A stretch of 64,000 nucleotides of DNA from Allomuricauda sp. F6463D (GTDB lineage: Bacteria > Bacteroidota > Bacteroidia > Flavobacteriales > Flavobacteriaceae), in contig NZ_JALKAN010000001.1 of NCBI RefSeq assembly GCF_023015965.1, positions 248,001 through 312,000 on the forward strand, in the 5' to 3' direction. The number at the start of each line of letters is the position of its first letter. Within the stretch, counting starts at the first letter, position 1. Positions 28,963 to 44,591 of the stretch are shown here, piece by piece. The notes under the pieces are model-generated. The model searched no databases. It was given only the letters and a program-made list of their open reading frames with translations, and was not told where the DNA came from. The position numbers and the translations under genes were made by a program.

Positions 28963-29006
28963 TGATAAAAATCATTGTAAAAAAAGAAGTTTTTTTGCCA
29001 AATTTG
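28963..29006 (+). promoter_or_regulatory. CRP/FNR-type dyad and -7 element upstream of cbpA
   Basis: Perfect dyad TGATAAAAATCA at 28963-28974. An octamer CAAATTTG at 28999-29006 fits the Bacteroidota -7 consensus TAnnTTTG except for its first base. The dyad centre to octamer start is 30.5 bp, which puts the dyad near -41 (class II activator position). The leader to the cbpA ATG would be about 66 bases. Confidence 0.65.
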
Positions 29007-29076
29007 ATGGTGTGATTCACTCGAATTAAATTCGAATGATATAAGGTTTTATAAATTCAGATTTCTATATCGACCT

Positions 29077-29985
29077 ATGGATTTTATTGATTATTACAAA
29101 GTATTGGGGATTGATAAAAAAGCGACTACCGACCAAATCAAAAAGGCGTATCGTAAGCTTGCCAGAAAGTATCATCCAGATTTAAACCCAAACGACAAGC
29201 AAGCCGAGAAAAGCTTTAAGCAAGTAAATGAAGCAAACGAGGTGTTGTCGGACCCAGAGAAGAGAAAAAAATACGACGAATACGGGAAGGATTGGCAGCA
29301 TGCTGAGGAATTTGAGAAAGCGAAGAAATCACGAGCGCAAGGCAGACAAGGTGATTATTCTGGATACACGTACGGTAGTTCCGGAGAATCGGCACAAGAT
29401 TTCTCTGATTTTTTTGAGTCTATGTTCGGTGGTGGATCAGGGTTTAGTTCGGCTCGGCAAAAGGTTCGGTTCAGAGGGCAGGATTACAATGCGCAGCTTC
29501 AATTATCCTTAATGGATGTGTACACGACACAAAAACAGACCCTTACAGTAAACGGTAAAAATATTCGATTGACCATTCCAGCAGGTATCGAAGATGGGCA
29601 GACCATTAAGATAAAAGGTCACGGAGGGCCTGGTACGCAAGGCGGACCCGCTGGTGATCTGTACATTACTTTTTCAATTGATAACAACACCGCCTTTAAA
29701 CGGGATGGGGCAAATTTGTATAAAACGGTGCAAATACCTTTGGTAAAAGCCGTGCTAGGAGGAGAGATACAGGTAGAAACCTTAACAGGGAAAGTGAAAC
29801 TAAAAGTTGCCCAGGGAACAGATAGTGGAACCAAAGTAAAACTTAAAGGGAAAGGATTTCCCAAATATAAAAAGGAAGGTCAATTTGGAGACCTCTACCT
29901 TACCTATGTAGTTAAAATACCAAAGAACCTAACACAAGAACAAAAATCACTGTTCCAATCGTTGGAAAAAACCAACCTAGAGTAA
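29077..29985 (+). CDS. cbpA: DnaJ-class co-chaperone CbpA
   Basis: J-domain protein that stimulates DnaK. 302 residues: J-domain (about 4-70) with the HPD motif at 33-35, a Gly/Phe/Ser-rich linker (about 95-125; [12 protein letters not shown]), then the C-terminal substrate-binding domains ([40 protein letters not shown]). The Cys-rich zinc finger of true DnaJ is absent, which identifies it as the CbpA type. Six bases separate it from cbpM, its usual partner. The TGAT-N4-ATCA promoter lies upstream. Confidence 0.95.
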
Positions 29986-29991
29986 AAAGAC

Positions 29992-30282
29992 ATGAAAAAA
30001 GAAAAATATATATCCATAAAAACGTTTTGTGAGCACCATGGGGTGGGGGAGTCCTTTGTATATTCCTTGTACGAATATGAAATTTTGCAGTTGGAGCATA
30101 AAGAAAATGAAGGAATGCTGTACATGGAAGACCTTCCTCTTTTAGAAAAAATGGTGCGTTTGTACAATGAGCTAGATATTAATCCAGAAGGAATACAGGC
30201 CATACACCACCTTTTGGGACAAGTGGAAAGTCTGCAGCAAGAAGTAGCGTCATTAAAAAGAAAATTGAACACCTTGGAATGA
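29992..30282 (+). CDS. cbpM: Chaperone modulator CbpM
   Basis: A 96-residue MerR-like helix-turn-helix protein that in known systems binds and inhibits CbpA. The N-terminal HTH is recognisable (ISIKTFCEHHGVGESFVYSL), followed by EYEILQLEHKENEGMLY and a C-terminal coiled coil (VESLQQEVASLKRKLNTL). Size, order and 6-bp spacing after cbpA match the cbpAM operon of other bacteria. Confidence 0.88.
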   Translation: MKKEKYISIKTFCEHHGVGESFVYSLYEYEILQLEHKENEGMLYMEDLPLLEKMVRLYNELDINPEGIQAIHHLLGQVESLQQEVASLKRKLNTLE

Positions 30283-30300
30283 TGTAGCCAATGGATAACA

Positions 30301-30343
30301 TGACCAAAATCATGGGAATTGATTGTCCCAAACTGTAATTTTA
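30301..30343 (+). promoter_or_regulatory. CRP/FNR-type dyad and -7 element upstream of the first usp gene
   Basis: TGACCAAAATCA at 30301-30312 (one change from TGAT-N4-ATCA) and TAATTTTA at 30336-30343 (TAnnTTTG with the last base changed). Centre-to-octamer distance is 29.5 bp, identical to five other sites in this island. The usp ATG is at 30443. Confidence 0.6.
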
Positions 30344-30442
30344 AGAAAATGTAACAAATAGATATGGTTTAAGAAATAGATGTTTTTAAAACATTTATCT
30401 CGTCTTAAGGAAGAGAACCACTTTATCTTAACAAAGTAAGTC

Positions 30443-31264
30443 ATGAAAAAAATATTGGTTCCTGTCGATTTTTCAAAACATTCGGAATATGCTCTGGAAG
30501 TTGCCGCGAACATAGCAAAGAAACATAATGCCAGTATAGTTTTGCTTCATATGATTGGTATATCCGATTCAGTTTTGGCCAATTCCGAAATTGCAGAGGA
30601 GGCAGAGGCCAAATATTATTTAAATCTGACCAAAGAAAAAATTAAAGAAACCATCGAGAAGGAGTACCTCAAAGAGGTTTCGGTGGAAGCCGTTATTCAA
30701 AATTATAAAGACTTTAGCGAGGTGAACAACGTAGCCCAAGAACAGAATTGTGATCTAGTTGTGATGGGCTCCCATGGTACCAGTGGTATAACGGAACTGT
30801 TTGTGGGCTCCAATACCGAAAAGGTGGTGCGCACATCTAATCTGCCCGTTATTGTGATAAAAAAACCACATAAAGACTTTACGATAAAAACAATGGTATT
30901 GGCCTCGGATTTAGACAAAGCGAGTATCCCGGTATATGAGAAGGCCGAAGCGTTTGCAAAATTATTCTCAGCTACATTGGAAGTTGCCTACATAAATACT
31001 TCCGGCGCACATTTTATGGGTTATGATGATGTAAAAAAAAGAATGGAAAACTTTCAAAAAGAACTGGGCAAGAAAATCAATGTTAAATTTTACAATTACC
31101 ATAGTGTAGAACGTGGAATCTTTAACTATTGTTATGAGAAAGATGCGGATTTATTGGTAATTCCAACACACGGTAGAAAGGGTCTGGCTCATTTTGTTGT
31201 TGGAAGTTTGGCCGAAAATGTAACCAATCACGCTAAACTCCCTGTTATGACCATTAAGCTCTAA
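30443..31264 (+). CDS. Universal stress protein, tandem UspA domains
   Basis: 273 residues with two complete UspA domains. Each keeps the nucleotide-binding pattern G-x2-G-x9-G(S/T): MGSHGTSGITELFVGSN in the first and PTHGRKGLAHFVVGS in the second. It is thus the only one of the five Usp proteins here with two intact ATP-type sites. Known UspA proteins help survival in growth arrest, oxidative or energy stress. Its promoter carries the shared dyad. It is convergent with the TerB-like gene, their stop codons being adjacent. Confidence 0.92.
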   Translation: MKKILVPVDFSKHSEYALEVAANIAKKHNASIVLLHMIGISDSVLANSEIAEEAEAKYYLNLTKEKIKETIEKEYLKEVSVEAVIQNYKDFSEVNNVAQEQNCDLVVMGSHGTSGITELFVGSNTEKVVRTSNLPVIVIKKPHKDFTIKTMVLASDLDKASIPVYEKAEAFAKLFSATLEVAYINTSGAHFMGYDDVKKRMENFQKELGKKINVKFYNYHSVERGIFNYCYEKDADLLVIPTHGRKGLAHFVVGSLAENVTNHAKLPVMTIKL

Positions 31265-31672
31265 TTATTTGATGAAGAGCAATTGCAAGCGCCCCAGTAA
31301 AATAAGTTCCGATTTATTGTTGCCGTAAAATGAAGCAGCTATGGCTCTGGATGTGCTCATAGTCAAATTTTTGATTGCTGTGGTGAACAGTGTTTTATGA
31401 TTGTAGTAGAATTTCTCGAATTCTTCATAAATTGCATCATTGTCTTTTTCGTACTCCAAGAGCCAATCAAACACAGAAATTATCTGAAAAGCGGCATCGT
31501 TCCCATATTCGTCTTCAACCTTATCTACATCTAACCAATGATTGCGTACAACCTCATTAAGTTTTTCCATCTCCTTTATATGTATACTGTGGTCCGCCAT
31601 GGCTACAGCGTAGAATAATTTCCCCAAATTTTGATAAAGTTCATTTCTGAGTTTTTTCTTGGATTCCAGCAT
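31265..31672 (-). CDS. Small TerB-like helical protein
   Basis: 135 residues, all-helical by appearance. The first half (LGKLFYAVAMADHSIHIKEM) has the AxADG-like acidic motif and spacing of the TerB/DjlA N-terminal family, which is linked to stress or metal-responsive functions. The resemblance is moderate and no function is assigned. It shares the dyad at 31728-31739 with the divergent histidine kinase gene. The best -7 element for that dyad faces this gene, leaving a leader of about 20 bases. Confidence 0.6.
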   Translation of the reverse strand: MLESKKKLRNELYQNLGKLFYAVAMADHSIHIKEMEKLNEVVRNHWLDVDKVEDEYGNDAAFQIISVFDWLLEYEKDNDAIYEEFEKFYYNHKTLFTTAIKNLTMSTSRAIAASFYGNNKSELILLGRLQLLFIK

Positions 31673-31696
31673 TTTATTAAATTTTATGATTAAAAA

Positions 31697-31739
31697 TAAA
31701 TATACTCAAGTAAATAATTTTTCAACATGATCTAAATCA
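31697..31739 (-). promoter_or_regulatory. CRP/FNR-type dyad between the TerB-like and histidine kinase genes
   Basis: Perfect dyad TGATCTAAATCA at 31728-31739. On the minus strand TATATTTA (31704 down to 31697) fits TAnnTTTG except for its last base, at exactly 29.5 bp from the dyad centre. No comparable octamer is placed for the plus strand, so the kinase may be served differently. Autoregulation of the divergent two-component pair remains possible. Confidence 0.6.
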
Positions 31740-31756
31740 GTAAATTTATTATCGTT

Positions 31757-33286
31757 TTGGAACTATTAGAGAAAAGTAACGTACTGGGCATGTTATCGGA
31801 GGTTATCTCCGAGGGTATTATTATTGTTGATGAGCAAAGGCAGATTACTGCCAGTAACAATGCTGCCAATATAATGTTTGCTTACGAAGCTGGGGAACTT
31901 CCTGGCAAGTCGTTGGATATCTTGATTCCCAAGCACGCCAGGAGCAATCACGAGACGAAGGTCGCTCACTTTATGTCCAAAGGGAAGGCACGTCAGATGG
32001 GGCAAGGTTTAGATTTGGTAGGCCTGCGAAAGGATGGCGAGGAGTTTCCCCTTGAGATAAGTCTCAGCCCATTTGAACTACATCGGAAAAAGTACGTGCT
32101 GGCACTCGTAATGGATATAACCGAAAGAAAGAAAGCCGAACAGACCATAGATTATTGGTTTCAGATTTTTGACGAATCGCTGAACGAAATTTTTGTATTC
32201 GATACATCCTCTTTTGTTTTTATTAATGTAAACCGTGGAGCCCAACTCAATTTGGGGTACACCATGGAAGAGCTGAACAAGATGTCCGTATTGGACATTA
32301 AACCAGACGTTGGATTGGAAACCATGAAGCGATTGCTTTCCCCCTTGTTGTCCAAACGGAAACAAAAAGTAATTTTTGAATCTCTCCACAAACGCAAAGA
32401 TGGAACCACATATCCTGTCGAGGTTCATTTACAGCTTTCATTTATTGGGAAACGACAAGTTTGTGTGGCCATTGTTTTGGACATTACGGAAAGGAAAAAT
32501 TATACAAAACAGTTGGAGGACACGGTAGCGGAACGTACCCAACAATTACAGGAGGCCTTAAAGGCAGAGAAAAAGCTTAATGAACTAAAAACAAAGTTTC
32601 TTTCACTGGTTTCCCACGAGTTCAAAACTCCCTTGACCAGTATACTCACGTCCACCTCGCTCTTGGGCAAATACACCGAGTCGGACCAGCAAGAAAAGCG
32701 GGATAAACATATCGTGACAATTAAATCCAAGGTGAAGCATTTGGACAACATACTTACCGATTTTTTATCCATAGAACGGTTGGAGTTGGGAAAGGTAAGC
32801 TACACAATTACAACATTTCCTCTTAGTAAATTGATAAATGAAGTGGTGTATGATTCCAATACGCTCTTAAAAGAAGGACAGCGCATTCGTTACCCCAATA
32901 ACATTGATGGGGTTGTGGTTGAGTTTGATGAAAAAATATTAGGGTTGGCTTTGTCGAATCTTGTGCACAATGCCATAAAATACTCCCCCGAGGATACCGA
33001 TATCGAATTGAAGGTGTCTCAAGAACGAGAACAACTTAATATCCAGGTTGTAGACGAAGGTTTTGGAATACCCTCCGAGGATCAACCGTTTGTTTTTGAC
33101 AGATATTTCAGGGCCAGCAATGTACTTACGGTTCAAGGTACAGGAATAGGGTTGAATACTGTAAGGCAACATATGCACAATCTAGACGCCAATATTACTT
33201 TTAAAAGTAAATATGGGAGTGGTTCCACCTTCACATTGCACATACCAATAAACAAAAAGCAAAATGAAAAAAATTTTACTGGTTGA
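31757..33286 (+). CDS. Soluble PAS-domain sensor histidine kinase
   Basis: 509 residues without membrane segments, so it senses a cytoplasmic signal. Two PAS domains (about 10-125 and 130-248, each ending in an ITERK-type motif), a linking coiled coil (about 250-280), HisKA with phosphoacceptor His287 in SLVSHEFKTPLTSI, and HATPase_c (NLVHNAIKYSPED, VDEGFGIPSED, GTGIGLNTVR). The first PAS resembles FixL/oxygen-sensor PAS (ARSNHETK, then LVGLRKDGEEFP). His65 falls at the place of the FixL haem His, but the FixL regulatory Arg is replaced, so haem binding is only a possibility. It overlaps the response-regulator gene by 23 bp, its certain partner. The TTG start is doubtful; ATG at 31790 is a good alternative. 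Confidence 0.9.
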   Translation: MELLEKSNVLGMLSEVISEGIIIVDEQRQITASNNAANIMFAYEAGELPGKSLDILIPKHARSNHETKVAHFMSKGKARQMGQGLDLVGLRKDGEEFPLEISLSPFELHRKKYVLALVMDITERKKAEQTIDYWFQIFDESLNEIFVFDTSSFVFINVNRGAQLNLGYTMEELNKMSVLDIKPDVGLETMKRLLSPLLSKRKQKVIFESLHKRKDGTTYPVEVHLQLSFIGKRQVCVAIVLDITERKNYTKQLEDTVAERTQQLQEALKAEKKLNELKTKFLSLVSHEFKTPLTSILTSTSLLGKYTESDQQEKRDKHIVTIKSKVKHLDNILTDFLSIERLELGKVSYTITTFPLSKLINEVVYDSNTLLKEGQRIRYPNNIDGVVVEFDEKILGLALSNLVHNAIKYSPEDTDIELKVSQEREQLNIQVVDEGFGIPSEDQPFVFDRYFRASNVLTVQGTGIGLNTVRQHMHNLDANITFKSKYGSGSTFTLHIPINKKQNEKNFTG

Positions 33287-34313
33287 GGATGATACCTCGT
33301 TGCGCGAAAATGTAGCCGAACTGTTAGAATTGTCCGGTTATAATGTGACTACAGCATCCAACGGAAAAGTGGCAGTGGAAATAGCAAGAGAAGAGCACCC
33401 GGATTTGGTACTCTGTGATATAATGATGCCTGAAATGGATGGGTATGGCGTGTTGGAAGAACTATCATCAAAAGAGACCACTAGGGATATACCATTTATA
33501 TTTGTCTCCGCTAAAACAGAAAGACAAGATGTTAGAAGGGGAATGAACCTAGGTGCCGATGACTATTTGACAAAGCCCTTTGAAGAAGAAGAACTATTGT
33601 CGGCCATTGAATGTCGTTTGGAAAAAGCCGAGCAAATGAAGGCTATTCTTGCTGAACAACCAAATAATAAACAGCACGGTAACGAAATTAAATCCCTTAA
33701 CGAACTTAAGAACTTTTTTGACGATCATGGGCAATTGCTTTCCTTTAAAAAAGATGAAACCATTTATTCAATAGGTGATCATTCCAATATGGTTTACCTT
33801 GTTCTTAAAGGAGTTATAAAAAGCTGTGCTTTGGACGAGCAAGGAAAAGAATTGATCACAACTATATACTCAGAAGATGATTTTTTGGGGTTCACTTCCT
33901 TGACAGAGCATTTACAACATCAAGAATATGCAATAGCGATTGAAAATGTGGAGTTGGCTGGAATATCCAAAGAAAAGGTGAAAGCGATTTTAGAGGATAA
34001 CAAAAGGGTTTCGTTGGAGCTAATGGATGTCATTACCGGTGATTTGGCAAACCTAAAAAAACAATTGCTTCAAATGGCCTATAGCTCGGTACGAAAAAAA
34101 ACTGCACAAACACTTGTAATGTTCTGCAAAGCAATTAACAGGGACAAGCAGGGACCCTTAAAAATTGCACGGAGTGATTTGGCAGGGGTGGCCGGAATTG
34201 CCACTGAAAGCCTAATAAGAACTCTTTCCGACTTTAAAAACGAAGGCCTTATTGCCATTGAAAACAGAAATATCCGAGTACTCAATAGGGAGGAATTGGA
34301 GCTTGTCAATTAA
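33264..34313 (+). CDS. Response regulator with receiver domain fused to a CRP/FNR-type DNA-binding module
   Basis: 349 residues. Receiver domain (1-122): acidic pocket Glu8/Asp9/Asp10, phosphoacceptor Asp52 in LCDIMMPEMDG, Lys104 in YLTKPF. Then a cyclic-nucleotide-binding-like beta-roll (about 155-265; KDETIYSIGDHSNMVYLVLKG) and a Crp-type helix-turn-helix (about 300-332; IARSDLAGVAGIATESLIRT). Recognition-helix residues Glu315 and Arg319 align with the Glu and Arg that CRP and FNR use to read TGA. Only four scattered cysteines are present (51, 117, 188, 288) and no N-terminal cluster, so it is not an Fe-S sensor; phosphorylation by the kinase overlapping it is the likely input. It is the best candidate to bind the dyads found across 28.9-44.6 kb. 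Confidence 0.92.
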   Translation: MKKILLVEDDTSLRENVAELLELSGYNVTTASNGKVAVEIAREEHPDLVLCDIMMPEMDGYGVLEELSSKETTRDIPFIFVSAKTERQDVRRGMNLGADDYLTKPFEEEELLSAIECRLEKAEQMKAILAEQPNNKQHGNEIKSLNELKNFFDDHGQLLSFKKDETIYSIGDHSNMVYLVLKGVIKSCALDEQGKELITTIYSEDDFLGFTSLTEHLQHQEYAIAIENVELAGISKEKVKAILEDNKRVSLELMDVITGDLANLKKQLLQMAYSSVRKKTAQTLVMFCKAINRDKQGPLKIARSDLAGVAGIATESLIRTLSDFKNEGLIAIENRNIRVLNREELELVN

Positions 34314-34339
34314 AAATAATGGGTCATAAATGACACAAA

Positions 34340-34381
34340 TGATATATATCATTCCGTTTTTTTAAACGAATGACAAACTTG
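34340..34381 (+). promoter_or_regulatory. CRP/FNR-type dyad and -7 element upstream of the second usp gene
   Basis: Perfect 12-bp palindrome TGATATATATCA at 34340-34351 and CAAACTTG at 34374-34381 (two changes from TAnnTTTG), spacing 28.5 bp. A second palindrome, GTCATAAATGAC at 34323-34334, lies just upstream with inverted half-sites. The usp ATG is at 34401. Confidence 0.55.
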
Positions 34382-34400: not shown

Positions 34401-35234
34401 ATGAAGAATATTCTGCTCCCAACAGATTTTTCCGAAAATTCGATACAGGCCTTAAAGTACGCTCAAACACTATTTGCCTTTAAGGAATGTAACTTTTATT
34501 TGCTGTATGTAGGGACCTTATTGGACACACAAAAAGACGAGAGTACCTTTCAACTAGACAGTGAGTCCATTGTAAGCACAAAGACAAAATTAACCGATCT
34601 CGTAAAAAATATTAGAAGAAGCAATGCCGAGACGAACCACTCTTTTTTTGCTTTGCATGAGTATGGTTTTTTTATTCCCACCATTAAAAAGCATTTGGAG
34701 GAAAAAAATATCGACCTTATTGTTATGGGAACCAAAGGAGCCTCGGGAATTAAGGAAAAAGTACTCGGTAGTAATGCAGGAGATGTCATAACCAAGGTAC
34801 AATGTAACACACTTGTAGTACCTGCCCAAGCTGAATTGTCCAAGCCTCGGGAAATTGCTTTTCCCACGGACTTTAATATTTTTTACTCTTTAGAGATTTT
34901 GCGTCCCATGGAAGAAATGATACGTCTGGGCAAAGCACATTTTAGGATTATGAACGCTTTAAAAGTTGGTGATGTCCTAAACGAAGAACAAGAGAAGAAT
35001 AAGGAACACCTTTTGGATTTTATGGAAGAAACATTTCCAGAGACGCATAGTTTTCACACGATAACAAACCAAAAAGTAAAATCGGCAATTCAATGTTTTG
35101 TGGAGAGCAGAGAAATTGACATGATGATTATGGTAGCCAAAAACCTGAATTTTATTCAACAGATACTGTTCGATTCGATTGTGGAGCAACTTAGCTTTCA
35201 TACCAAGATACCCTTCTACGTAATTCACGAATAA
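34401..35234 (+). CDS. Universal stress protein with degenerate second domain
   Basis: 277 residues, two UspA-fold halves. The first half keeps the nucleotide motif (MGTKGASGIKEKVLGSNAG). The second half lacks every glycine of the motif and reads MIMVAKNLNFIQQILFDSI instead, a pattern shared with the next three Usp proteins. It starts PTDFSENSIQALKYAQ, the typical Usp opening. It is the first gene of a run of four related usp genes after the two-component pair and has its own dyad promoter. A structural or signalling role for the modified half is inference. Confidence 0.88.
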   Translation: MKNILLPTDFSENSIQALKYAQTLFAFKECNFYLLYVGTLLDTQKDESTFQLDSESIVSTKTKLTDLVKNIRRSNAETNHSFFALHEYGFFIPTIKKHLEEKNIDLIVMGTKGASGIKEKVLGSNAGDVITKVQCNTLVVPAQAELSKPREIAFPTDFNIFYSLEILRPMEEMIRLGKAHFRIMNALKVGDVLNEEQEKNKEHLLDFMEETFPETHSFHTITNQKVKSAIQCFVESREIDMMIMVAKNLNFIQQILFDSIVEQLSFHTKIPFYVIHE

Positions 35235-35311: not shown

Positions 35312-35354
35312 TGATGTAAATCATAGTATAGGACCAATCTAGTAAATAGCTTTG
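35312..35354 (+). promoter_or_regulatory. CRP/FNR-type dyad with consensus -7 element upstream of the third usp gene
   Basis: The best example in the island: perfect dyad TGATGTAAATCA at 35312-35323 and a full-consensus -7 octamer TAGCTTTG at 35347-35354, 29.5 bp from dyad centre to octamer start. With the start point a few bases after the octamer, the dyad is centred near -41 and replaces the -33 element, the geometry of class II CRP/FNR activation. The usp ATG is at 35385. Confidence 0.75.
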
Positions 35355-35384: not shown

Positions 35385-36227
35385 ATGATTAAAGTTGTAT
35401 TGCCAACAGATTTCTCCGAAAATGCCTTTAGTGCCATTTCTTATGCAGTAAAATTATTCGAAAAATCTACCTGTATATTTTATTTGGTACATGCCTATAC
35501 CCCACCAGTTTATAGAGCAGACTATGCTTTGGGTAGTCCAGGACAATTGGGTTTGCCGGACACCGAAAAGTATAAGGCAGAGGAAGCTTTGGATAAAATT
35601 CGAACTAAAATTAAGACAAAGTTCAATGTGCCAACACATGACTTTGTTATACATGCTGCGTTCAATTCTTTAGAGGATGAGATTGCTTCTATTTCCCAAA
35701 AGGAAAACATCGATTTGGTGGTTATGGGGACCCAAGGAGCAACAGGTGCAAAGGAAATCCTTTTTGGCTCCAACACCATACATGTGATACAAAAAACGGG
35801 AATACCGGTTCTGGCGGTTCCCTCGGATTATGAATACAAGCCACCATTCAATGTTTTGTTTCCAACGGATTACGAAGTGGATTATAAAAAAGCCAATGTT
35901 GACTTTTTACTAGAATATTGCAAACTATGGCGTTCCAAACTCCATATTATGCATGTTACCTCTTCCGATGGGCTTGATAGTGAACAGGCTGCTCAAAAAA
36001 CCGATTTGGAAGGAATGTTACTGGAGCAAAATTACCAGTTTTACGACTTGCCCGACCAAGAGTTGATTAGTGCCATCAATGGATTTCAAAAAGAGAACCC
36101 AGTGGAACTATTGGCCATGGTAAAGAACAAACATTCGTTTATTGAGCGACTTTTTGTGGAGCCCATAATCAAAAACATTGGTCTTCACGCCAAAGTTCCT
36201 TTTTTGGTCCTTCCATATAACAAATAA
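35385..36227 (+). CDS. Universal stress protein with degenerate second domain
   Basis: 280 residues. The first UspA half has an intact nucleotide motif, MGTQGATGAKEILFGSNT. The second half has lost it and instead shows LLAMVKNKHSFIERLF followed by the KVPFLVLP strand. It opens LPTDFSENAFSAISYAVKLF. The next usp gene follows after 9 bp, so the two share the promoter at 35312-35354. Confidence 0.88.
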   Translation: MIKVVLPTDFSENAFSAISYAVKLFEKSTCIFYLVHAYTPPVYRADYALGSPGQLGLPDTEKYKAEEALDKIRTKIKTKFNVPTHDFVIHAAFNSLEDEIASISQKENIDLVVMGTQGATGAKEILFGSNTIHVIQKTGIPVLAVPSDYEYKPPFNVLFPTDYEVDYKKANVDFLLEYCKLWRSKLHIMHVTSSDGLDSEQAAQKTDLEGMLLEQNYQFYDLPDQELISAINGFQKENPVELLAMVKNKHSFIERLFVEPIIKNIGLHAKVPFLVLPYNK

Positions 36228-36236: not shown

Positions 36237-37055
36237 ATGTTACAGATTTTAGTACCTACCGATTTTTCGAATAACTCCTACAATGCATTATACTATGCAG
36301 CAAGGTTGTTTAAGAACAAACAATGCGCGTTCCATATTGTGAATGTATGCAGTACCACCACCAATACGGATATAAATTTGGCCAAACTGGAGTCAGCCCA
36401 AGGGTTGGATGCTTTGGTTCATAGGTTAATAAGAGATACAGGAGAGAACAAAGCTCACACTTTTAAAAAGATTTCTTTATGCTCGGATATGTCCAAAGGA
36501 GTGTCGCACTATGCTAAAGAGAACAACGTAGACCTCACCGTTATAGGAAATAAGGCGAAAGAAGAGGTTAAAAATATATTGTTCGGCAACAATGCGATGC
36601 AGTTGGTAAGGGAAATAACTAACTGTCCGGTATTGGTTGTTCCATTGGAAATCGATTTTAAACGTGTGGATAAAATTGCATTCACTTCAAATTATTCCAA
36701 TCCTATTGGAGAGGATAATATCAAAACAATCAAGTTCTTCAGTAGTTTAATGGATAGCGTTATCGTGCCAATGAACATAGATGAAAACAAGGATGAGGTT
36801 TCCGTGCAACAAAACAAGGCCAATTTTCTTGAGGCAATTTCCGATAACAGTTCCAAAGAAGTGGAGTTGCCCATATTTGACGGCAAAGTGAACACCATTT
36901 TAGAATTTGTAGATCTCTGGAGCATAGACATACTTGTCATGGTTTATTATCCACATCACTTTTTCTTAGAATTTATTGGTAAGGGAATAATAAAAGAATT
37001 GAATACTAAACTAAAGGTGCCATTTTTGATTTTACCCCATACCCATAATTTATGA
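36237..37055 (+). CDS. Universal stress protein, both nucleotide motifs degenerate
   Basis: 272 residues, two UspA-fold halves, opening LVPTDFSNNSYNALYYAARL. Unlike its neighbours even the first-half motif is damaged: IGNKAKEEVKNILFGNNAM lacks the second glycine and has Asn in place of Ser. The second half reads ILVMVYYPHHFFLEFIG. ATP binding is therefore unlikely. It is co-transcribed with the gene 9 bp upstream. Its stop codon lies inside the dyad of the next promoter (37050-37061). Confidence 0.85.
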   Translation: MLQILVPTDFSNNSYNALYYAARLFKNKQCAFHIVNVCSTTTNTDINLAKLESAQGLDALVHRLIRDTGENKAHTFKKISLCSDMSKGVSHYAKENNVDLTVIGNKAKEEVKNILFGNNAMQLVREITNCPVLVVPLEIDFKRVDKIAFTSNYSNPIGEDNIKTIKFFSSLMDSVIVPMNIDENKDEVSVQQNKANFLEAISDNSSKEVELPIFDGKVNTILEFVDLWSIDILVMVYYPHHFFLEFIGKGIIKELNTKLKVPFLILPHTHNL

Positions 37056-37092
37056 ATATCATAGTACAACATGTTGAAACACTGTAGATTTT
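37050..37092 (+). promoter_or_regulatory. CRP/FNR-type dyad and -7 element upstream of the fifth usp gene
   Basis: TTATGAATATCA at 37050-37061 (one change from TGAT-N4-ATCA) overlapping the preceding stop codon, and TAGATTTT at 37085-37092 (TAnnTTTG with the last base changed). Spacing is exactly 29.5 bp. The usp ATG is at 37111. Confidence 0.5.
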
Positions 37093-37110: not shown

Positions 37111-37962
37111 ATGGATAAGAGAGTTTTATTGCCAACGGACTATTCAAAAAATGCATTGAACGCAATTAGATATGCAATGGAACTGTACAAGAACGTTCGA
37201 TGTGAGTTTTATGTACTCAATGCCTTTCACATCTCAGGATATACTCTGGATAGTATGAGGGTTCCCGAAACCGAAGAACCCTATTATGAAGCCGCGAAAA
37301 AAGAATCCGAAGAAGAGATGCAACGGTTGATGAAAATGTTGGAACTATACTCACAAAACGACAAGCATAAATTCCACACCATTACAACCCTCAATAATTT
37401 TATTCAAGCTGTTGAGGTTGTAATAGATAAGAAGGATATTGATATGATTGTAATGGGAACCAAAGGAATAACTGGCTCCACGGCACGGATATTTGGCTCC
37501 AATACTGTAAATATAATGGAGCAGATAAAAGAATGCCCGGTTATTGCAGTGCCCAACAATTATAGGTTTGAAACATTAAGGGAAATAGTATTTCCCACAG
37601 ACTATAAAACGCCCTTTAAAAAGAAAGAAATTGGCGATTTGATAGAGTTATCCAAAATACACGATGCAAAGATCAATGTAGTTCATATTGATAAGGACAA
37701 AGAAGAACAACTGGGAAGAAAAGAAAAGGAAAATAAAGAATTGTTGCAAGAAATATTACAAGGGACAGATTATGAGATGCATTTTTTGCAATCGGACAAG
37801 ATAAGTATGGGAATCAACAATTTTATAGGGAACAATGACTGTGATATGGTCGCTTTTTTAAATAGAAAACACTTGTTTTTAGAAAGTGTCCTTACCAATC
37901 CTTTTGTAAAAAAGATTGGATTTGATCCCCAAGTACCAATTTTGGAAATGAACGATAACTAA
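37111..37962 (+). CDS. Universal stress protein with degenerate second domain
   Basis: 283 residues. The first half is intact (MGTKGITGSTARIFGSNTV). The second half is converted to MVAFLNRKHLFLESVL, ending QVPILEMNDN. It opens LLPTDYSKNALNAIRYAMEL. It has its own dyad promoter and is followed 13 bp later by a small gene of unknown function, which forms its operon partner. Confidence 0.88.
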   Translation: MDKRVLLPTDYSKNALNAIRYAMELYKNVRCEFYVLNAFHISGYTLDSMRVPETEEPYYEAAKKESEEEMQRLMKMLELYSQNDKHKFHTITTLNNFIQAVEVVIDKKDIDMIVMGTKGITGSTARIFGSNTVNIMEQIKECPVIAVPNNYRFETLREIVFPTDYKTPFKKKEIGDLIELSKIHDAKINVVHIDKDKEEQLGRKEKENKELLQEILQGTDYEMHFLQSDKISMGINNFIGNNDCDMVAFLNRKHLFLESVLTNPFVKKIGFDPQVPILEMNDN

Positions 37963-37975: not shown

Positions 37976-38404
37976 ATGATACAAGTGGGAATTTGGCTGG
38001 ATAAACAGGAGGCTAATGGAGTAGTACTGGAAAACGGAAAAGAGAGTATTTTCAACATTTCTTCGGAACTGGATTTTTTTAATCCCAAAGGTGGGTCGAG
38101 GTCAAAAACCAAATGGGGTCCGCAAGAAGTGGTCCATGACAGTAAGTATCTTGAAAGGGAAAAACACCAATTAAAGAATTATTTTGAAAAGATTGCCGAT
38201 AAAATTTCCAATGCGGACCAAATAGCCATTTTTGGGCCGGCCGAAACACCAGAAAAGTTTGTAAAAACCCTAGAAGAGAACCATCCTGGATTGGCAGCCA
38301 AAGTATTAACGACCAAGACAGTAGACAGTATGACGCAAAATCAGTTTAAGGCATTGGCAAAACAGTCCTTTGGAATAGACGACCGTTATCCTGATGCCAC
38401 GTAA
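37976..38404 (+). CDS. Small protein resembling one domain of the eRF1/Pelota-like family
   Basis: 142 residues, not firmly recognised. The N-terminal half starts as a beta-strand with an acidic turn (VGIWLDKQEANGVVLENGK). The second half has IAIFGPAETPEKFVKTLEEN, then TVDSMTQNQFKALAKQSFG, a pattern that recalls the GPxEAK...L and (D)xMT motifs of bacterial eRF1-like (baeRF/host-attachment) proteins, which are usually much longer. It sits 13 bp after a usp gene, so a ribosome- or stress-linked role is conceivable but unproven. Confidence 0.55.
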   Translation: MIQVGIWLDKQEANGVVLENGKESIFNISSELDFFNPKGGSRSKTKWGPQEVVHDSKYLEREKHQLKNYFEKIADKISNADQIAIFGPAETPEKFVKTLEENHPGLAAKVLTTKTVDSMTQNQFKALAKQSFGIDDRYPDAT

Positions 38405-38419: not shown

Positions 38420-38462
38420 TGATTTAGGTCATTTTTTTACAGCCGACCAAACCTTACATTCG
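38420..38462 (+). promoter_or_regulatory. CRP/FNR-type dyad and -7 element upstream of the small helical protein and hsp20
   Basis: TGATTTAGGTCA at 38420-38431 (one change) and TACATTCG at 38455-38462 (one change from TAnnTTTG), 29.5 bp apart by the same measure as elsewhere. It probably drives 38492-38896 and perhaps hsp20, for which no separate dyad was found. Confidence 0.6.
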
Positions 38463-38491
38463 TTTACAATTCGGAACAAAGAAGCCTAGTG

Positions 38492-38896
38492 ATGGTAAGG
38501 GAAAAACAAATAGAGGTAATGCATGATAATCTGCAAAATTGGAAATCCTATTTGCAGTTTATAGGGGATGAAATGATCTTTATCCAAAGGTTGTTGAACT
38601 CTTATGTTTTTGAGCCAAGAACACCTCATTTGTTTGAACGCTTGGAAGTATTCAAACAACACTTTGATGCTTCAAAAAGGAATAGAACAGCATTATTGCA
38701 ATCCATTAAAACCCATGAAAATGGGCTTGCAGGAATTTTTGAATGCGTACAAGATGATTGCGATAATCATTACTACGAAAAGCACCAAGGCCTCAAGAAT
38801 AATATTACAGACTATATACAGACTTACATAGGCCTTAAAAAGGATGTCTACAATTACGCAGGCTCTGTGCTAAAAATGAAGAAGCCATTGTACTGA
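38492..38896 (+). CDS. Small helical protein of unknown function, upstream of hsp20
   Basis: 134 residues from ATG at 38492 (a GTG directly before it is the alternative). It looks entirely helical, with alternating charged and hydrophobic residues: LQNWKSYLQFIGDEMIFIQR, then a C-terminal helix around DYIQTYIGLKKDVYNYAG. It resembles the protein encoded just after hsp20 (39466-39909) in layout: W-x(4)-L-xF-x2-DE-x2-F near the start and a Leu-rich middle. No known domain is recognised. Its position suggests a partner of Hsp20 or a stress-induced coiled-coil protein. Confidence 0.65.
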   Translation: MVREKQIEVMHDNLQNWKSYLQFIGDEMIFIQRLLNSYVFEPRTPHLFERLEVFKQHFDASKRNRTALLQSIKTHENGLAGIFECVQDDCDNHYYEKHQGLKNNITDYIQTYIGLKKDVYNYAGSVLKMKKPLY

Positions 38897-38973: not shown

Positions 38974-39414
38974 ATGTCACTCGTAAAATTAGATGGAAAA
39001 CGATTTCCTTGGAATGAGAACCTGATTGATTTTTTCAATCGAGAAGCGTTTGTTGATGAAGATTTTTTCAATTTAGAAAAAACCCACCCTTCTATGAACG
39101 TTAAAGAACACAAAGATGATTTTGAAATTGAATTTGCCGCACCCGGGTTTGAGAAAAAAGATTTCGAAATCACTATAAAAGATGATGTCTTGGAGGTTTC
39201 TGCCAAAAAAAGTAACAAAGAAACCAAAGAAGATGAAAATTTCACACGAAGGGAATTCAACTACAACGCATTTACACGAACCTTGCAGTTGCCTGCTACT
39301 GTGGACCAATCAAAAGAGGTCAAGGCAGTTTATGAAAACGGTATTCTTAAGTTAAATGTTCTGAAAATGGAAGAAGCTAAGAAAGACCTAAAAAAAGTTA
39401 TCAAGGTATTATAA
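38974..39414 (+). CDS. Small heat shock protein, Hsp20/alpha-crystallin family
   Basis: ATP-independent holdase chaperone of 146 residues. The alpha-crystallin domain spans about 40-140: MNVKEHKDDFEIEFAAPGFE, then DVLEVSAKKS, FNYNAFTRTLQLPATVD and the late strand NGILKLNVLK. A short N-terminal arm and a short C-terminal tail complete it. It lies between two similar small helical proteins. The CRP-type site at 38420 is about 540 bp upstream, so hsp20 may be transcribed with 38492-38896. A perfect hairpin follows its stop by 9 bp. Confidence 0.93.
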   Translation: MSLVKLDGKRFPWNENLIDFFNREAFVDEDFFNLEKTHPSMNVKEHKDDFEIEFAAPGFEKKDFEITIKDDVLEVSAKKSNKETKEDENFTRREFNYNAFTRTLQLPATVDQSKEVKAVYENGILKLNVLKMEEAKKDLKKVIKVL

Positions 39415-39423
39415 TTGAAATTT

Positions 39424-39449
39424 GCGGCAGATGTTTGCTCATCTGCCGC
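39424..39449 (+). terminator. Perfect hairpin after hsp20
   Basis: GCGGCAGATG (39424-39433) pairs perfectly with CATCTGCCGC (39440-39449) around a 6-base loop. No T-run follows (TAAAAGTAG), so it may be an mRNA 3'-end stabiliser or partial terminator between hsp20 and 39466-39909 rather than a full terminator. Confidence 0.6.
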
Positions 39450-39465
39450 TAAAAGTAGTTTAGCA

Positions 39466-39909: not shown

Positions 39910-39930
39910 GATTATTGAGAAATAAAAAAT

Positions 39931-40938: not shown

Positions 40939-42339
40939 CAATGGACTTAGAAGCTTAGCAAGGCCTTCGAGCAATTTTTTAATCCACGGTCTTTCCTTAT
41001 ATTTTTTATAATCTAAGAGTACTTTGGATTTTTTACAATCTTTCAAGAAGTCCGTTTTCATTTGTTTGCAAAGAGAGGCATTATATACAAAAACTTGTGC
41101 TTCATAATTTTGCTGCAGGCTTCTATTATCCAGATTGGCCGTTCCAATACTGGCAATTTCATCGTCACATAACATTACTTTACTATGTAAAAACCCATCA
41201 GCATACAAGTATATTTTGATACCGGCTTTAAGATACGATTCAAAATATGCTCTAACGCACCAATCCACAAGCTTAATATCTGTGCTGGAAGACATTAGAA
41301 TCCGTACATCCACCCCACTTAAGGCAGCGGTCATAAGAGCCTGTAGTATAGCATGATTTGGAATTATGTAAGGATTTACAATGTATAAATATTTTTCAGC
41401 ACTATTAATAATCGAAAAATAGACTTGTTCCATTACGTCAAAATCATCATCTGGACCACTGGGAACAATTTGGAGCGAAGACCCTTTATTGGGAACACCA
41501 TAAGTTTTGAACTGCAATAGGTCTACTTTTTTTCCACTGGCCAGATGCCAATCGGTCACAAATGTCCGGTTCAAAAAAACAACCGCTTCACCTTCAATTT
41601 TTAAATGCGTGTCGTGCCATTTGCCAAGTGATGGATCCCCTTTTAAATATTTGTCCGAAATATTGATGCCACCTGTAAATCCTACTTTATTATCGATTAC
41701 AATAATTTTTCTGTGGTTTCTATAGTTTAATGCAGAAAGAAACCTACCAAACTTATAAGGAAGGAACTGGGCTGTTTCTACCCCGATATTTTTAAGTTTT
41801 TTGAGGTATTTTTTACTTAGGGAGTAGCTGCCGATACCATCGTAGAGGAGTCGAATGGTTACATTTTCAGCAATTTTGCGTTCAAAAACTTCCAATAGCT
41901 TATCAGCCAAGACTCCGTCTTCAAAAATGTAGTATTGTAAGTGTATGTGCTCTTGTGCATCTTCCAGTGCCCTGAAAATACTTACAAAGGTGTTTTTACC
42001 ATCTTTTAACAATTCCAAATCATTATTGCAGGTAACTGGACACTCTACGGTTTTGGTAATCAGCGAAGTAATTTTGAGTTTGCTGGTGGAAATTTCGGGG
42101 TTACAAATTGTATCATCGAGTTGAACAATTGGGCCATACTCGTTTTTAAGCGAAAACATTTTGCTTTTTCTTCTGTTTCGACCAAACAATACATATAAGA
42201 GGACACCTGCCACGGGGATGGTAAAGATTGCCAATAGCCATGCCAATGTTTTGCTTGGTCTTACCCCGTTCAACAACAAGCTTATAACCATTAGTAAGGC
42301 GATGACTATGTAAAGCGAGATGAGAATGGGAACGAGCAT
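40933..42339 (-). CDS. cls: Cardiolipin synthase (phospholipase D superfamily)
   Basis: 468 residues. Two N-terminal membrane helices (about 1-50), then two PLD half-sites, each with an HKD motif: HRKIIVIDNKVGFTGGIN and HSKVMLCDDEIASIGTANLD, the second followed by NRSLQQNYEAQ, typical of Cls. The enzyme joins phosphatidylglycerol molecules to cardiolipin at the inner membrane. It is convergent with the dehydrogenase gene. No CRP-type dyad was found upstream of its start. Confidence 0.94.
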   Translation of the reverse strand: MLVPILISLYIVIALLMVISLLLNGVRPSKTLAWLLAIFTIPVAGVLLYVLFGRNRRKSKMFSLKNEYGPIVQLDDTICNPEISTSKLKITSLITKTVECPVTCNNDLELLKDGKNTFVSIFRALEDAQEHIHLQYYIFEDGVLADKLLEVFERKIAENVTIRLLYDGIGSYSLSKKYLKKLKNIGVETAQFLPYKFGRFLSALNYRNHRKIIVIDNKVGFTGGINISDKYLKGDPSLGKWHDTHLKIEGEAVVFLNRTFVTDWHLASGKKVDLLQFKTYGVPNKGSSLQIVPSGPDDDFDVMEQVYFSIINSAEKYLYIVNPYIIPNHAILQALMTAALSGVDVRILMSSSTDIKLVDWCVRAYFESYLKAGIKIYLYADGFLHSKVMLCDDEIASIGTANLDNRSLQQNYEAQVFVYNASLCKQMKTDFLKDCKKSKVLLDYKKYKERPWIKKLLEGLAKLLSPLL

Positions 42340-42461
42340 CTATTTTTTGATACTTATTGAAATCTAATCACAAGGTAGTAAATCTATTTTTGTTGGCTCG
42401 TTGGTTAGTATCATTTAATTAATCTAGCATAATATACCTTTATTTTAAAATGAATATAGTT

Positions 42462-43811
42462 TTACATAAAATCTTTGACATTTTCACCAAGGTCGAAGAC
42501 TTGTACATTTTTATTGTTCCCTTCAACGATACTGCTACCTGCCGAACTTCGGTATCCGCCTGCACAGTGAACAATTATAGGTTTTTCAATTGGGATTTTA
42601 TCCAAAGAAGCCCTTAGCTCATTCAAAGGTACCGTCATTGCATTATCAAAAAATTTACCTTCTTCAAGCTCACTTTGGTTACGGATATCCACAATGGTAT
42701 AATTGTCCGGGTGGCTCTTAAAATCAGCTAAATCGAGTTTATCACTTTCCACAACCAAGGACTCATCCAATGTCAATACAGATTTCACTTGTTTCTCATA
42801 TCCGATTTTGGCAACCCTTCCCAATACTTCTTCCATATCACCGGGTTTGTCAATAACCAAACTAAAAGGTTCTTCTGGATTTACAATGGCCCCCAGCCAT
42901 GTTTCAAACTTGGAGTCTTCAGAAACTGCCATAATGTTGATGCTTCCGGGTAGATGGCCTTTTTTAAAATCGATATCATTCCTTACATCTATAATTAGAC
43001 CATCAGTACTAGCATGTAATCGTAAGGGTATGTTTGCTACGGAAGTTCGTAGGTTTTCGGCCCCTTTTCGGTTAGTGTCCACATCAAATCCAAAATAGGA
43101 AGGGATAAAAGGTTGACTGTCCAATAGGGTATGTATAAATGCTTCTTTTGATTGTGGTTTAAAGGCCCAGTTTCCCATTCTTTCGTTGCCCAAAGTGCTG
43201 CTATTGTCGGAACTTAAATTTTTTCCACATAGCGAACCAGCTCCATGTGCGGGGTATATTAAAGCACCATCAGGTAAATTCTTGAATTTATTTCGGATGG
43301 TATCGTACATCATTTCAGCCAGTTCTTGACGTTTTGCGGTCATATTCCCCGCTTTTTCACGTAAATCGGGTCGTCCAACATCTCCAATAAAAAGGGTGTC
43401 ACCTGTAAACAGTGCTGTTTTTCCATCTTTTTCCGCAACAATTGTTATACTGTCCGGAGAGTGTCCGGGAGTATTTAATGCAGAGACTTTAATGTCACCG
43501 ATCATTATACTTTGGCCTTCATCGAAAGGGGCATGGTCATAGTCGGCACCCAACATTTTGCTGTGGTATATCGATGCACCGGTTTCATTGTGTATTTGCA
43601 GGTGTGAGCTCACAAAGTCGGCATGTGGGTGGGTTTCAATGACCGCTACTATCTTGGCCCCGTGTTCCTTTGCAAAGGCATAGTACTGCATGGGGTCCCT
43701 CTCAGGATCTATAACGGCCATTTCACCATTATCTACAATGGCGTAGGAGTAGTGGGCCAATGGTTTATATTCAAACTGTTTTATTTCCATAGAATAGGGT
43801 TTAAAGGGCAC
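42462..43811 (-). CDS. MBL-fold hydrolase fused to two rhodanese domains
   Basis: 449 residues. N-terminal metallo-beta-lactamase domain of the ETHE1/persulfide dioxygenase-like branch: THPHADFVSSH (His61, His63, Asp65; Phe after the Asp, as is common in this fusion family), FTGDTLFIGDVGRPDL and YPAHGAGSLCG. Then two rhodanese domains: the first (about 257-350) lacks the catalytic Cys, the second (about 360-449) has it in VHCAGGYRSS. Such proteins oxidise or transfer persulfide sulfur, so a sulfur or oxidative-stress role is likely. It lies 33 bp after the peroxiredoxin gene in the same direction, probably one operon. Confidence 0.9.
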   Translation of the reverse strand: MPFKPYSMEIKQFEYKPLAHYSYAIVDNGEMAVIDPERDPMQYYAFAKEHGAKIVAVIETHPHADFVSSHLQIHNETGASIYHSKMLGADYDHAPFDEGQSIMIGDIKVSALNTPGHSPDSITIVAEKDGKTALFTGDTLFIGDVGRPDLREKAGNMTAKRQELAEMMYDTIRNKFKNLPDGALIYPAHGAGSLCGKNLSSDNSSTLGNERMGNWAFKPQSKEAFIHTLLDSQPFIPSYFGFDVDTNRKGAENLRTSVANIPLRLHASTDGLIIDVRNDIDFKKGHLPGSINIMAVSEDSKFETWLGAIVNPEEPFSLVIDKPGDMEEVLGRVAKIGYEKQVKSVLTLDESLVVESDKLDLADFKSHPDNYTIVDIRNQSELEEGKFFDNAMTVPLNELRASLDKIPIEKPIIVHCAGGYRSSAGSSIVEGNNKNVQVFDLGENVKDFM

Positions 43812-43844
43812 CTTGTTTCAAGATGCCCTAAATTCAATATAGGT

Positions 43845-44510
43845 TTAGATTTCTTTCTTAGCAAGATACCAATCTACTTTTTCAAGGGAATCGTCCTCAA
43901 TTCTTTCATTGAGTTCATCCAAAGTCTTGGGGGGAGAGACTATCACTTTATCACCTTTTTTCCAATCCAATGGCATGGCCACTTTGTACTTGTCCGAAGT
44001 TTGAAGGGCTTCCAATGCTCTCAGTATTTCATCCATGTTTCTACCGACATTTAAGGGATAGTACATAATCAATCGGATTTTTTTGGAAGGATCAATAAAG
44101 AACACGGCCCTCACTGCTGCAGTCTCACTTTCATTGGGTTGTAGCATACCGTACAGCTTGGATACTTTCATGTCCAAATCCGCTATAATCGGGAAATCGA
44201 AGTATACCCCGGTATTTTCCCTAACATTTTGTACCCAACCCAGGTGGGCATGGATACTGTCAATGCTCAATCCCAACAATTCAGTATTCATCGCTTCAAA
44301 TTCACTTTTCCTTTGTGCAAACCCACTCATTTCCGTAGTACATACCGGAGTAAAATCAGCAGGATGTGAGAACATTACAGTCCATTTGTCCTTAGCAAAT
44401 TCTGAAAATTTTATTTTTCCCTTGGTGGTAACAGCTTCAAAATCTGGAGCGATGTCCCCAATTCTTGGCATTGGATTTACGGTTGCGGTCTCTAAATTAG
44501 AACTTTCCAT
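43845..44510 (-). CDS. 1-Cys peroxiredoxin (Prx6 type)
   Basis: 221 residues. Reduces H2O2 and organic peroxides. The peroxidatic Cys lies in SHPADFTPVCTTE, and no second cysteine is present, which with the long C-terminal part (MPLDWKKGDKVIV) identifies the Prx6 group. It is first in a two-gene unit with the MBL-rhodanese protein. The dyad at 44580-44591 and a minus-strand -7 element lie 40-80 bp upstream. Confidence 0.94.
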   Translation of the reverse strand: MESSNLETATVNPMPRIGDIAPDFEAVTTKGKIKFSEFAKDKWTVMFSHPADFTPVCTTEMSGFAQRKSEFEAMNTELLGLSIDSIHAHLGWVQNVRENTGVYFDFPIIADLDMKVSKLYGMLQPNESETAAVRAVFFIDPSKKIRLIMYYPLNVGRNMDEILRALEALQTSDKYKVAMPLDWKKGDKVIVSPPKTLDELNERIEDDSLEKVDWYLAKKEI

Positions 44511-44548
44511 AGTGCTATAAATTATATTTATTATTATTTATTTAATGA

Positions 44549-44591
44549 TAAAATTAACTTATATTTCTAGGATCGACAGTAACGTAAGTTA
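44549..44591 (-). promoter_or_regulatory. CRP-like dyad (TAAC variant) and -7 element upstream of the peroxiredoxin gene
   Basis: TAACGTAAGTTA at 44580-44591, within the larger GTAAC-N4-GTTAC, has the same 4-N-4 plan as the other dyads but half-site TAAC instead of TGAT. On the minus strand TAATTTTA (44556 down to 44549) fits TAnnTTTG except for its last base, again exactly 29.5 bp from the dyad centre. The variant half-site may mean a different CRP-family protein. Confidence 0.5.

Follow-up and report, generated by a model that had tools for sequence, protein, structure and literature searches.

A DNA element made of a TGAT-N4-ATCA dyad and a TAnnTTTG-like promoter octamer recurs in a 64,000-nucleotide stretch of the Allomuricauda sp. 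F6463D genome (contig NZ_JALKAN010000001.1, positions 248,001 to 312,000; hereafter the window), where it precedes usp and chaperone genes on both sides of a two-component pair: a PAS-PAS histidine kinase and a response regulator with a CRP-type output (receiver-CRP). Comparisons of these sequences across the family make it likely, in our view, that a haem-PAS kinase phosphorylates this FNR-type regulator, which would drive a low-oxygen survival regulon, with an FNR paralogue acting on the same element. We also lean, slightly, towards a wider proposal: two interchangeable inputs, FNR itself and a 'phospho-FNR', would run the FNR regulon of the Flavobacteriaceae through a single DNA code. The 'phospho-FNR' would be the receiver-CRP fusion, which takes its input from a haem-PAS kinase, and 26 to 31 of 149 genera, about a fifth, seem to hold only this one. 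The combination of dyad and phase is more than chance, and the repeated dyads very probably are true binding sites, kept at a constant distance before the promoter in many genera of the family, whose members are mostly marine.

A sequence-only reading of the window had listed eight dyads, and all eight 12-mers were found where it had placed them. They are given here with the distance that separates the dyad's centre from the octamer's first base, as read along the target gene's strand.

28963-28974, plus strand: dyad TGATAAAAATCA before cbpA; -7-like octamer CAAATTTG at 28999-29006, distance 30.5
30301-30312, plus strand: dyad TGACCAAAATCA before usp 30443; octamer TAATTTTA at 30336-30343, distance 29.5
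31728-31739, minus strand: dyad TGATTTAGATCA facing the TerB-like gene; octamer TATATTTA at 31697-31704, distance 29.5
34340-34351, plus strand: dyad TGATATATATCA before usp 34401; octamer CAAACTTG (two changes) at 34374-34381, distance 28.5
35312-35323, plus strand: dyad TGATGTAAATCA before usp 35385; exact octamer TAGCTTTG at 35347-35354, distance 29.5
37050-37061, plus strand: dyad TTATGAATATCA before usp 37111; octamer TAGATTTT at 37085-37092, distance 29.5
38420-38431, plus strand: dyad TGATTTAGGTCA before the small gene 38489; octamer TACATTCG at 38455-38462, distance 29.5
44580-44591, minus strand: dyad TAACTTACGTTA inside GTAAC-N4-GTTAC, before the peroxiredoxin gene; octamer TAATTTTA at 44549-44556, distance 29.5

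The spacing is as it had been described, with six dyads at 29.5, one at 28.5 and one at 30.5 from a TAnnTTTG-like octamer. In the transcription-start map of Flavobacterium psychrophilum the TAnnTTTG box spans -12 to -5 (available text of PMC9723704), and a distance of 29.5 therefore corresponds to position -41.5, in agreement with the class II CRP/FNR placement that had been proposed. Additional octamers with one change lie at 21.5 and 58.5 from dyad 28963, at 52.5 from dyad 30301 and, on the minus strand, at 35.5 from dyad 31728, and dyad 34340 has no octamer with fewer than two changes. We rejected dyad 31728 as a promoter site of the kinase gene: at 29.5 the plus strand has no octamer even with two changes allowed, the phased octamer belongs to the minus strand, in front of the TerB-like gene, and the near-invariant T described below is also on that side.

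The dyad alone is not enriched: with one change allowed the window has 40 matches, where shuffled sequence gives 45.9 on average (the whole genome has 113 exact matches). This would suit an explanation in which AT-rich promoters yield dyads and octamers at random phases, from which a few were then picked; we give it next to no credence, as it is refuted by spacing histograms that peak sharply at a single base in relatives and in whole genomes. The window itself holds 9 dyad-plus-octamer elements in phases 22-24, and ten other three-phase groups hold between 0 and 5 apiece; six of the 9 are at the locus, and the three elsewhere have no T after the dyad. For the relatives, the best 80 of 557 candidate loci were fetched, homologues of 19 locus genes were located and their upstream stretches were read, the window included; the sequences share ancestry and do not count as independent draws, and usp paralogues may carry one another's labels. 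The best dyads in these promoters are followed by 584 octamers with up to one change, of which 253 stand at 29.5, 23 at 28.5 and 23 at 30.5, and no other distance has more than 27. With free spacing and 31 values allowed, 89 of 142 matches fall at 29.5 in six fully listed congeneric genomes of the 60 searched. Dyads with up to one change occur in 76 of 77 TerB-like promoters (shuffle expectation 16.8), in 75 of 82 promoters of the usp gene adjoining the regulator (15.1) and in 31 of 32 promoters of the gene before hsp20 (4.9). The base after the dyad, which lay outside the selection, is T in every case to two decimals among 280 sites of spacing 23 in seven gene groups, and the promoter code can be read out as TGAY-N4-RTCAT, 22 bases, TAnnTTTR. 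Dyad and phase together are above chance in these counts, and both are conserved in related flavobacteria.

The locus contains cbpA, cbpM, a usp gene, a TerB-like gene on the minus strand, the PAS-PAS kinase gene overlapping the receiver-CRP gene, four further usp genes, two small genes, hsp20 and others. The genes that matter here are:

29077-29985, plus strand: cbpA-like DnaJ gene, probable target
29992-30282, plus strand: cbpM-like MerR_2 gene, probably cotranscribed with cbpA; a dyad of its own in 0 of 39 homologues
30443-31264, plus strand: usp gene, probable target
31265-31672, minus strand: TerB-like gene with no Pfam match, probable target
31757-33286, plus strand: histidine kinase gene, PAS-PAS-HisKA-HATPase; start codon uncertain, TTG 31757 or later
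33264-34313, plus strand: receiver-CRP regulator gene (Response_reg, cNMP_binding, HTH_Crp_2), overlapping the end of the kinase gene
34401-35234, plus strand: usp gene adjoining the regulator, probable target
35385-36227, plus strand: usp gene, probable target
36237-37055, plus strand: usp gene, phased site in 0 of 26 homologues; perhaps read through from 35385
37111-37962, plus strand: usp gene, probable target
38489-38896, plus strand: small gene leading to hsp20, with no Pfam match, probable target
38974-39414, plus strand: hsp20 gene, perhaps read through from 38489
43845-44510, minus strand: peroxiredoxin gene behind the eighth dyad

Phased sites precede the TerB-like gene in 72 of 77 homologues (71 at 29.5), usp 34401 in 72 of 82 (47 at 29.5 and 25 at 28.5), usp 35385 in 63 of 100 (62 at 29.5), usp 37111 in 45 of 82 (44 at 29.5), the pre-hsp20 gene 38489 in 28 of 32 (28 at 29.5), usp 30443 in 26 of 60 (26 at 29.5) and cbpA in 22 of 40 (relatives plus the window). 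Even the odd spacings are conserved, namely 24 bases in 20 of the 22 cbpA sites, which share the window's one-base-longer spacing, and 22 bases in 25 of the 72 sites before usp 34401. Lower counts were obtained for the kinase (13/81), hsp20 (9/26), pld (8/28), the open reading frames at 37976 (6/35) and 39415 (6/39), uprt (6/29, the cbpA region being shared) and a metallo-beta-lactamase/rhodanese gene (3/11). No phased site was found before homologues of cbpM (39), receiver-CRP (81), usp 36237 (26), the hydroxyacid dehydrogenase gene (37) or prx (4, which are three Aquimarina loci and the window and are uninformative on close relatives). These counts lend no support to general membership for the peroxiredoxin, hydroxyacid dehydrogenase or PLD genes, or for hsp20 taken alone; from the targets first proposed, cbpAM, usp, the TerB-like gene and the unit leading to hsp20 are retained and peroxiredoxin is dropped. 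The two small target genes (31265-31672 and 38489-38896) are both conserved and both without any Pfam match, and the TerB-like gene stands beside the receiver-CRP gene in most of the fetched relatives.

The element is not confined to this locus. With the spacing fixed and up to two changes allowed, the host genome of about 3.7 Mb has 118 matches on its two strands, against 47 for the reversed pattern. Among the 23 sites with up to one change, some lie inside long open frames and are probably chance; others precede two Dps-like genes, the FNR-like gene, its divergent ccoI-like neighbour and a hemN-like gene, and further sites precede a cytochrome c gene, another usp gene, an FtsH-like gene, a TonB-like gene and a second TerB-like gene (the names Dps-like, ccoI-like, hemN-like, FtsH-like and TonB-like come from reading the sequence, and usp, TerB-like and cytochrome c are also supported by clustering). 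The sequence-only reading had proposed a one-locus general stress regulon with a built-in regulator, and the dense sites at the locus, the chaperone and usp targets and the crowding of sites near the regulator in most relatives examined all speak for it; set against the genome-wide excess, the targets elsewhere in the genome and the 123 of 180 sites that lie beyond 25 kb from the regulator in ten relatives, it is very unlikely. The word stress also proves too vague, since both the sensor of the kinase and the set of targets suggest low oxygen or respiration.

The pair in the middle of the locus is as had been recognized, with kinase and CRP-output regulator genes that overlap (31757-33286 and 33264-34313), and a kinase homologue lies on the same strand as the regulator in 80 of 80 fetched relatives, which are the 80 best regulator matches. 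Response regulators with a CRP output are a listed rare class. The protein matches PF00072 at 7.3e-33, and its matches to PF00027 (3.7e-15) and PF13545 (1.1e-11), both over the cut-off, assign it the beta-roll and winged helix of the CRP/FNR superfamily. Its nearest relative among the matches listed is 88% identical. The acidic residues of the receiver, Asp52 and Lys104 are invariant in 81 of 81 homologues, as are the A-T-E and I-R of the recognition helix. Its sequence has no CxxC and its N-terminus is the receiver domain, so the cysteine pattern of an iron-sulphur FNR is absent. The predicted structure (mean predicted local distance difference test score, pLDDT, 72.7; predicted template modelling score, pTM, 0.44) is too loose for argument.

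Four proteins with a Crp-type helix-turn-helix were found in the window's own genome. Two of them, receiver-CRP and the FNR-like paralogue, have recognition helices (GIATESLIRTL and GTATESAIRII, respectively) that share A-T-E-S and I-R; the other two differ. The FNR-like paralogue (P0003, G000:C19:141033-141719, L156:1045-1734) has Cys5, Cys8 and Cys107, with Asn14 at the C29-like place, and the same is seen in one relative that was compared. The cluster ligands of E. coli FNR are C20, C23, C29 and C122; in the paralogue the CxxC and the far cysteine are kept and Asn stands at the third N-terminal cysteine place, and its cluster chemistry may differ. As to the built-in regulator of the earlier proposal, receiver-CRP is a good candidate binder, but probably not the sole one, for the FNR-like paralogue with its near-identical recognition helix appears to use the element as well.

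To apportion the element between these two proteins, we counted the strict phased form in 149 genomes, one per genus. Receiver-CRP was scored as present at a match of E up to 1e-60 (74 of 149, the only copy being 40-43% identical in G060, G081, G162 and G186) and FNR at E up to 1e-30 (103 of 149, of which 98 are orthologue-like with 41% identity or more and 5 are weak only). As genus counts without tree correction, the 43 genomes with both regulators average 25.7 sites; the average is 15.8 in the 26 that have receiver-CRP alone, 18.6 in the 5 where receiver-CRP is joined by no more than a weak FNR match, 9.6 in the 55 that have FNR alone and 1.4 in the 20 that lack both. The reversed-pattern control gives 0.54 to 0.87 sites per class. 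Co-occurrence is near-additive, 15.8 and 9.6 summing to 25.4 against the 25.7 with both. Sites also crowd round the regulators. In ten receiver-CRP-only genomes with complete lists, 57 of 180 sites are no further than 25 kb from the receiver-CRP gene, where a uniform spread would put 2.7 (46 of 103 in the subset of the first six); in nine FNR-only genomes with complete lists, the same distance from FNR takes in 23 of 149, where 2.5 would be expected. The crowding round a built-in regulator is seen in most of the receiver-CRP-only genomes examined, one of the ten having none. In G177, G194, G121, G154, G205, G164, G189 and G113 the receiver-CRP and FNR-like genes are about 1 kb apart, two inputs at one locus; an extra receiver-CRP copy, 41-46% identical, is present in addition to a closer one in G069, G093, G103, G108, G109, G113, G115, G152, G172 and G201.

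To survey the targets, we fetched the sequence downstream of 173 sites. Of these, 103 come from six receiver-CRP-only genomes and 70 from four FNR-only ones, selected out of nine and ten that had been listed for the respective classes; 168 of the 173 sites gave a downstream frame, and the clusters were named by Pfam on one member each, except hemN-like, usp and TerB-like. Giving the receiver-CRP-only genomes first, usp targets occur in 6/6 (21 sites) and 3/4 (6 sites), COX1-family oxidases in 6/6 and 3/4, cytochrome c in 5/6 and 4/4, hemN-like genes in 5/6 and 3/4, TerB-like genes in 5/6 and 0/4, ribosome hibernation factors in 4/6 and 2/4, pyridine-nucleotide reductases in 4/6 and 1/4, CBS proteins in 1/6 and 3/4, and thioredoxin-fold proteins in 1/6 and 3/4; the remaining clusters have at most four sites each, mostly one. 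The reading of a recurrent FNR-only target as a nitroreductase, which would have made a mycobacterial parallel, was wrong, Pfam identifying it as the thioredoxin-fold protein. From these genome comparisons, receiver-CRP appears to hold the microaerobic set where FNR is absent, plus the usp and TerB-like set known from the window's locus. In F. psychrophilum the genes for cbb3 oxidase and for haem synthesis are raised when oxygen is limiting, and the terms 'fnr', 'crp' and 'response regulator' are absent from the main text of that study as available (PMC9723704).

These data also bear on the idea that the FNR-like paralogue alone reads the dyads and that receiver-CRP has another site or job. 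Consistent with this, the same class of element precedes the FNR gene itself and ccoI-like and hemN-like genes, and FNR-only genomes have their own sites, crowded near FNR and including some before usp genes. We nevertheless regard it as unlikely, because the 26 genera with receiver-CRP and no FNR match carry far more sites than those with neither (15.8 against 1.4), because about a third of the sites in ten such genomes (57/180) lie close to the receiver-CRP gene, and because TerB-like targets recur in five of six receiver-CRP-only genomes and in none of four FNR-only ones. The second base after the dyad is G in 3 of 103 receiver-CRP-only and 19 of 70 FNR-only sites (Fisher p 3e-6), a difference that may be one of lineage composition and was not used; the window's own sites sort unclearly by this base.

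The sensor side of the pair points to haem. PAS1 of the kinase matched 14 PDB sequences at E <= 1e-5, 13 of them DosP/YddU, 'Heme pas sensor protein' or FixL, with values of 1.5e-15 for DosP and 8.8e-12 for FixL, and PAS2, searched against PDB sequences as a control, matched none of those haem-PAS proteins and only two others, weakly. His65 of PAS1 aligns with the histidine of RSRH in FixL and of RPAH in DosP, which we take to be their haem ligands, and is invariant in 81 of 81 homologues among mostly variable neighbours. The predicted structure of the kinase (mean pLDDT 77.1, pTM 0.39) is too loose for argument, save that His65 lies in a helix, 59-75. The arginine that holds oxygen on the distal side is R220 in FixL and R97 in DosP. 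At the corresponding place (window residue 85) the 81 homologues have Arg in 42, Leu in 31 including the window, Val in 5, Lys in 2 and Ser in 1, Leu being found mostly in the Allomuricauda group and its neighbours. The window kinase may work like FixL, and we do not class it as a FixL orthologue, the distal arginine being replaced; PAS1 would be a haem-PAS sensor, and its range of ligands may have changed in the clade to which the window belongs.

This replacement in the window and 30 relatives, with the Val, Lys and Ser of the others, is what favours a variant in which the pair works as described and the signal is not oxygen, PAS1 haem sensing nitric oxide, carbon monoxide or redox, or haem having been lost in the window's clade. 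We hold this variant possible, though doubtful: the proximal histidine is kept in all 81 sequences amid mostly variable neighbours, and the recurring targets are a microaerobic set of oxidase, hemN-like and cytochrome c genes.

We therefore suggest the following course of events for a haem-PAS kinase and an FNR-type regulator acting on low-oxygen genes. Low oxygen, or an oxygen-linked haem ligand, would change the haem state of PAS1 in the kinase (31757-33286), which would phosphorylate Asp52 of the receiver. The receiver-CRP protein (33264-34313) would be the main activator at the locus. Seven of the eight dyads would bind FNR-type dimers at -41.5 (two shifted by one base), where a dimer in the class II place could contact RNA polymerase and activate transcription. 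Binding of the phosphorylated regulator would switch on the usp genes, cbpAM, the TerB-like gene and the unit leading to hsp20, together with respiratory and survival genes elsewhere in the genome. The FNR-like paralogue would read the same element, so that two sensors add up on one regulon, and where a genus lacks FNR, receiver-CRP seems to serve the microaerobic targets by itself. The sequences themselves show the sites with their phase, conservation and genome-wide spread, the near-additive co-occurrence, the domain anatomy and the invariant histidine, while binding, phosphorylation, haem, the oxygen signal and activation are inferred from them.

Several observations weigh against this proposal. 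With Leu at the oxygen-binding Arg place, the ligand of the window kinase may not be oxygen. A phased site is well supported for neither the kinase (13/81) nor the regulator (0/81) gene, which leaves autoregulation unsupported. A CRP/FNR homologue of a Flavobacteriales metagenome-assembled genome, which may or may not be the same protein, is predicted to sense carbon in the available text of PMC8510549. The co-occurrence test is uncorrected for ancestry and has many small genomes in its 'neither' class, and G180 has 11 phased sites with neither regulator at the thresholds used, other distant Crp-like proteins being present (some other Crp-like protein may read the element there). The clustering is uneven, with 0 of 18 sites near the receiver-CRP gene in G098 and 2 of 20 in G119. 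Finally, FNR-only genomes carry usp sites too (6 sites in 3 of 4 genomes), and because the window's genome has both regulators, FNR could do the work in it.

The eighth dyad had been counted in the same regulon, and turns out to be a motif of another kind. Peroxiredoxin as a member was rejected for this clade, as its dyad is GTAAC-N4-GTTAC, and other phased copies of this motif lie near a different Crp paralogue. The core TAAC-N4-GTTA before peroxiredoxin is exact in 16 of 18 genus relatives and also stands in a 17th, itself located on a partial match (L306), with TGAC..GTCA in the 18th; DNA similarity was used to find these relatives (19 of 60 genomes, the window's own among them), which biases the set to conserved ones. 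The motif's three other phased copies in the window's genome (C19:336919, 340172 and 340201) lie 6-9 kb from the Crp paralogue C19:346147. The eighth dyad thus has the same geometry and probably another Crp paralogue as its regulator, the assignment to C19:346147 being suggested by nearness. This second class II code, GTAAC-N4-GTTAC plus octamer (L322, G000:C11:292550-292592, window 44550-44592), was seen in 16 of 17 genomes tried. In G145, from another genus, the peroxiredoxin gene has a TGAT-type phased site.

In E. coli, dimers of FNR or CRP at class II promoters are centred at -41.5, the FNR half-site is TGAT with flanks TTGAT-N4-ATCAA, and the FNR recognition residues are E..SR. The flavobacterial system shares the -41.5 centre and the TGAT half-site with it; the flanks, however, are here mostly C/A-TGAT-N4-ATCA-T with a near-invariant T, the recognition residues are E..IR, and receiver-CRP has no CxxC. 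A literature search of titles and abstract starts among the papers listed, which took in few subscription journals, found no receiver-CRP regulator with this element in flavobacteria and no account of an FNR-type low-oxygen regulon in them. The parts are of known kinds, and their combination here is a variant that we did not find described. Its readable promoter code allows the regulon to be listed in any Flavobacteriaceae genome and gives a candidate sensor, and the system offers a clean test case for a phosphorylation-fed regulator that adds to or replaces FNR without rewiring of promoters.

The low-oxygen-activated (lxa) locus of Burkholderia cenocepacia is a comparable block with six usp genes and a heat-shock gene, tied by its authors to an Anr/FixK-like regulator of the CRP family (available text of PMC6127331). 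The gene of that regulator, BCAM0049, is not part of the locus itself (BCAM0275-0323), and the text presents it as a CRP-family protein, not as a response regulator (PMC6127331). The DosRST/DevRS systems of Mycobacterium and OsdKR of Streptomyces resemble what is proposed for the present pair in their haem-linked, oxygen-sensing two-component control of usp and heat-shock genes, and OsdKR also in the many OsdR sites round its regulator (available text of PMC5069765). The DNA box of the DosR-type systems is different and the regulators are not homologous; the parallel with the haem-PAS and CRP output found here is one of function. Their sensors are haem proteins of the GAF type, and their output domains are of the LuxR/NarL type. 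If the wider, two-input proposal is true, a survival set of usp, chaperone and ribosome hibernation genes would be joined to a high-affinity oxidase set, parallel to the mycobacterial dormancy regulon. Another near parallel is the rhizobial hFixL-FxkR-FixK and FnrN system, where one branch with a FixL-type kinase and another with FNR converge on shared anaeroboxes and cbb3 oxidase genes (available text of PMC7888657). There the kinase works through FxkR, and FxkR induces a separate factor, FixK (PMC7888657), whereas here the receiver and CRP parts are one protein, so that kinase to promoter would be a single step, and the flavobacterial -7 element is a further difference. The rhizobial cascade of kinase, response regulator and FixK would, if the wider proposal is true, be compressed into one step.

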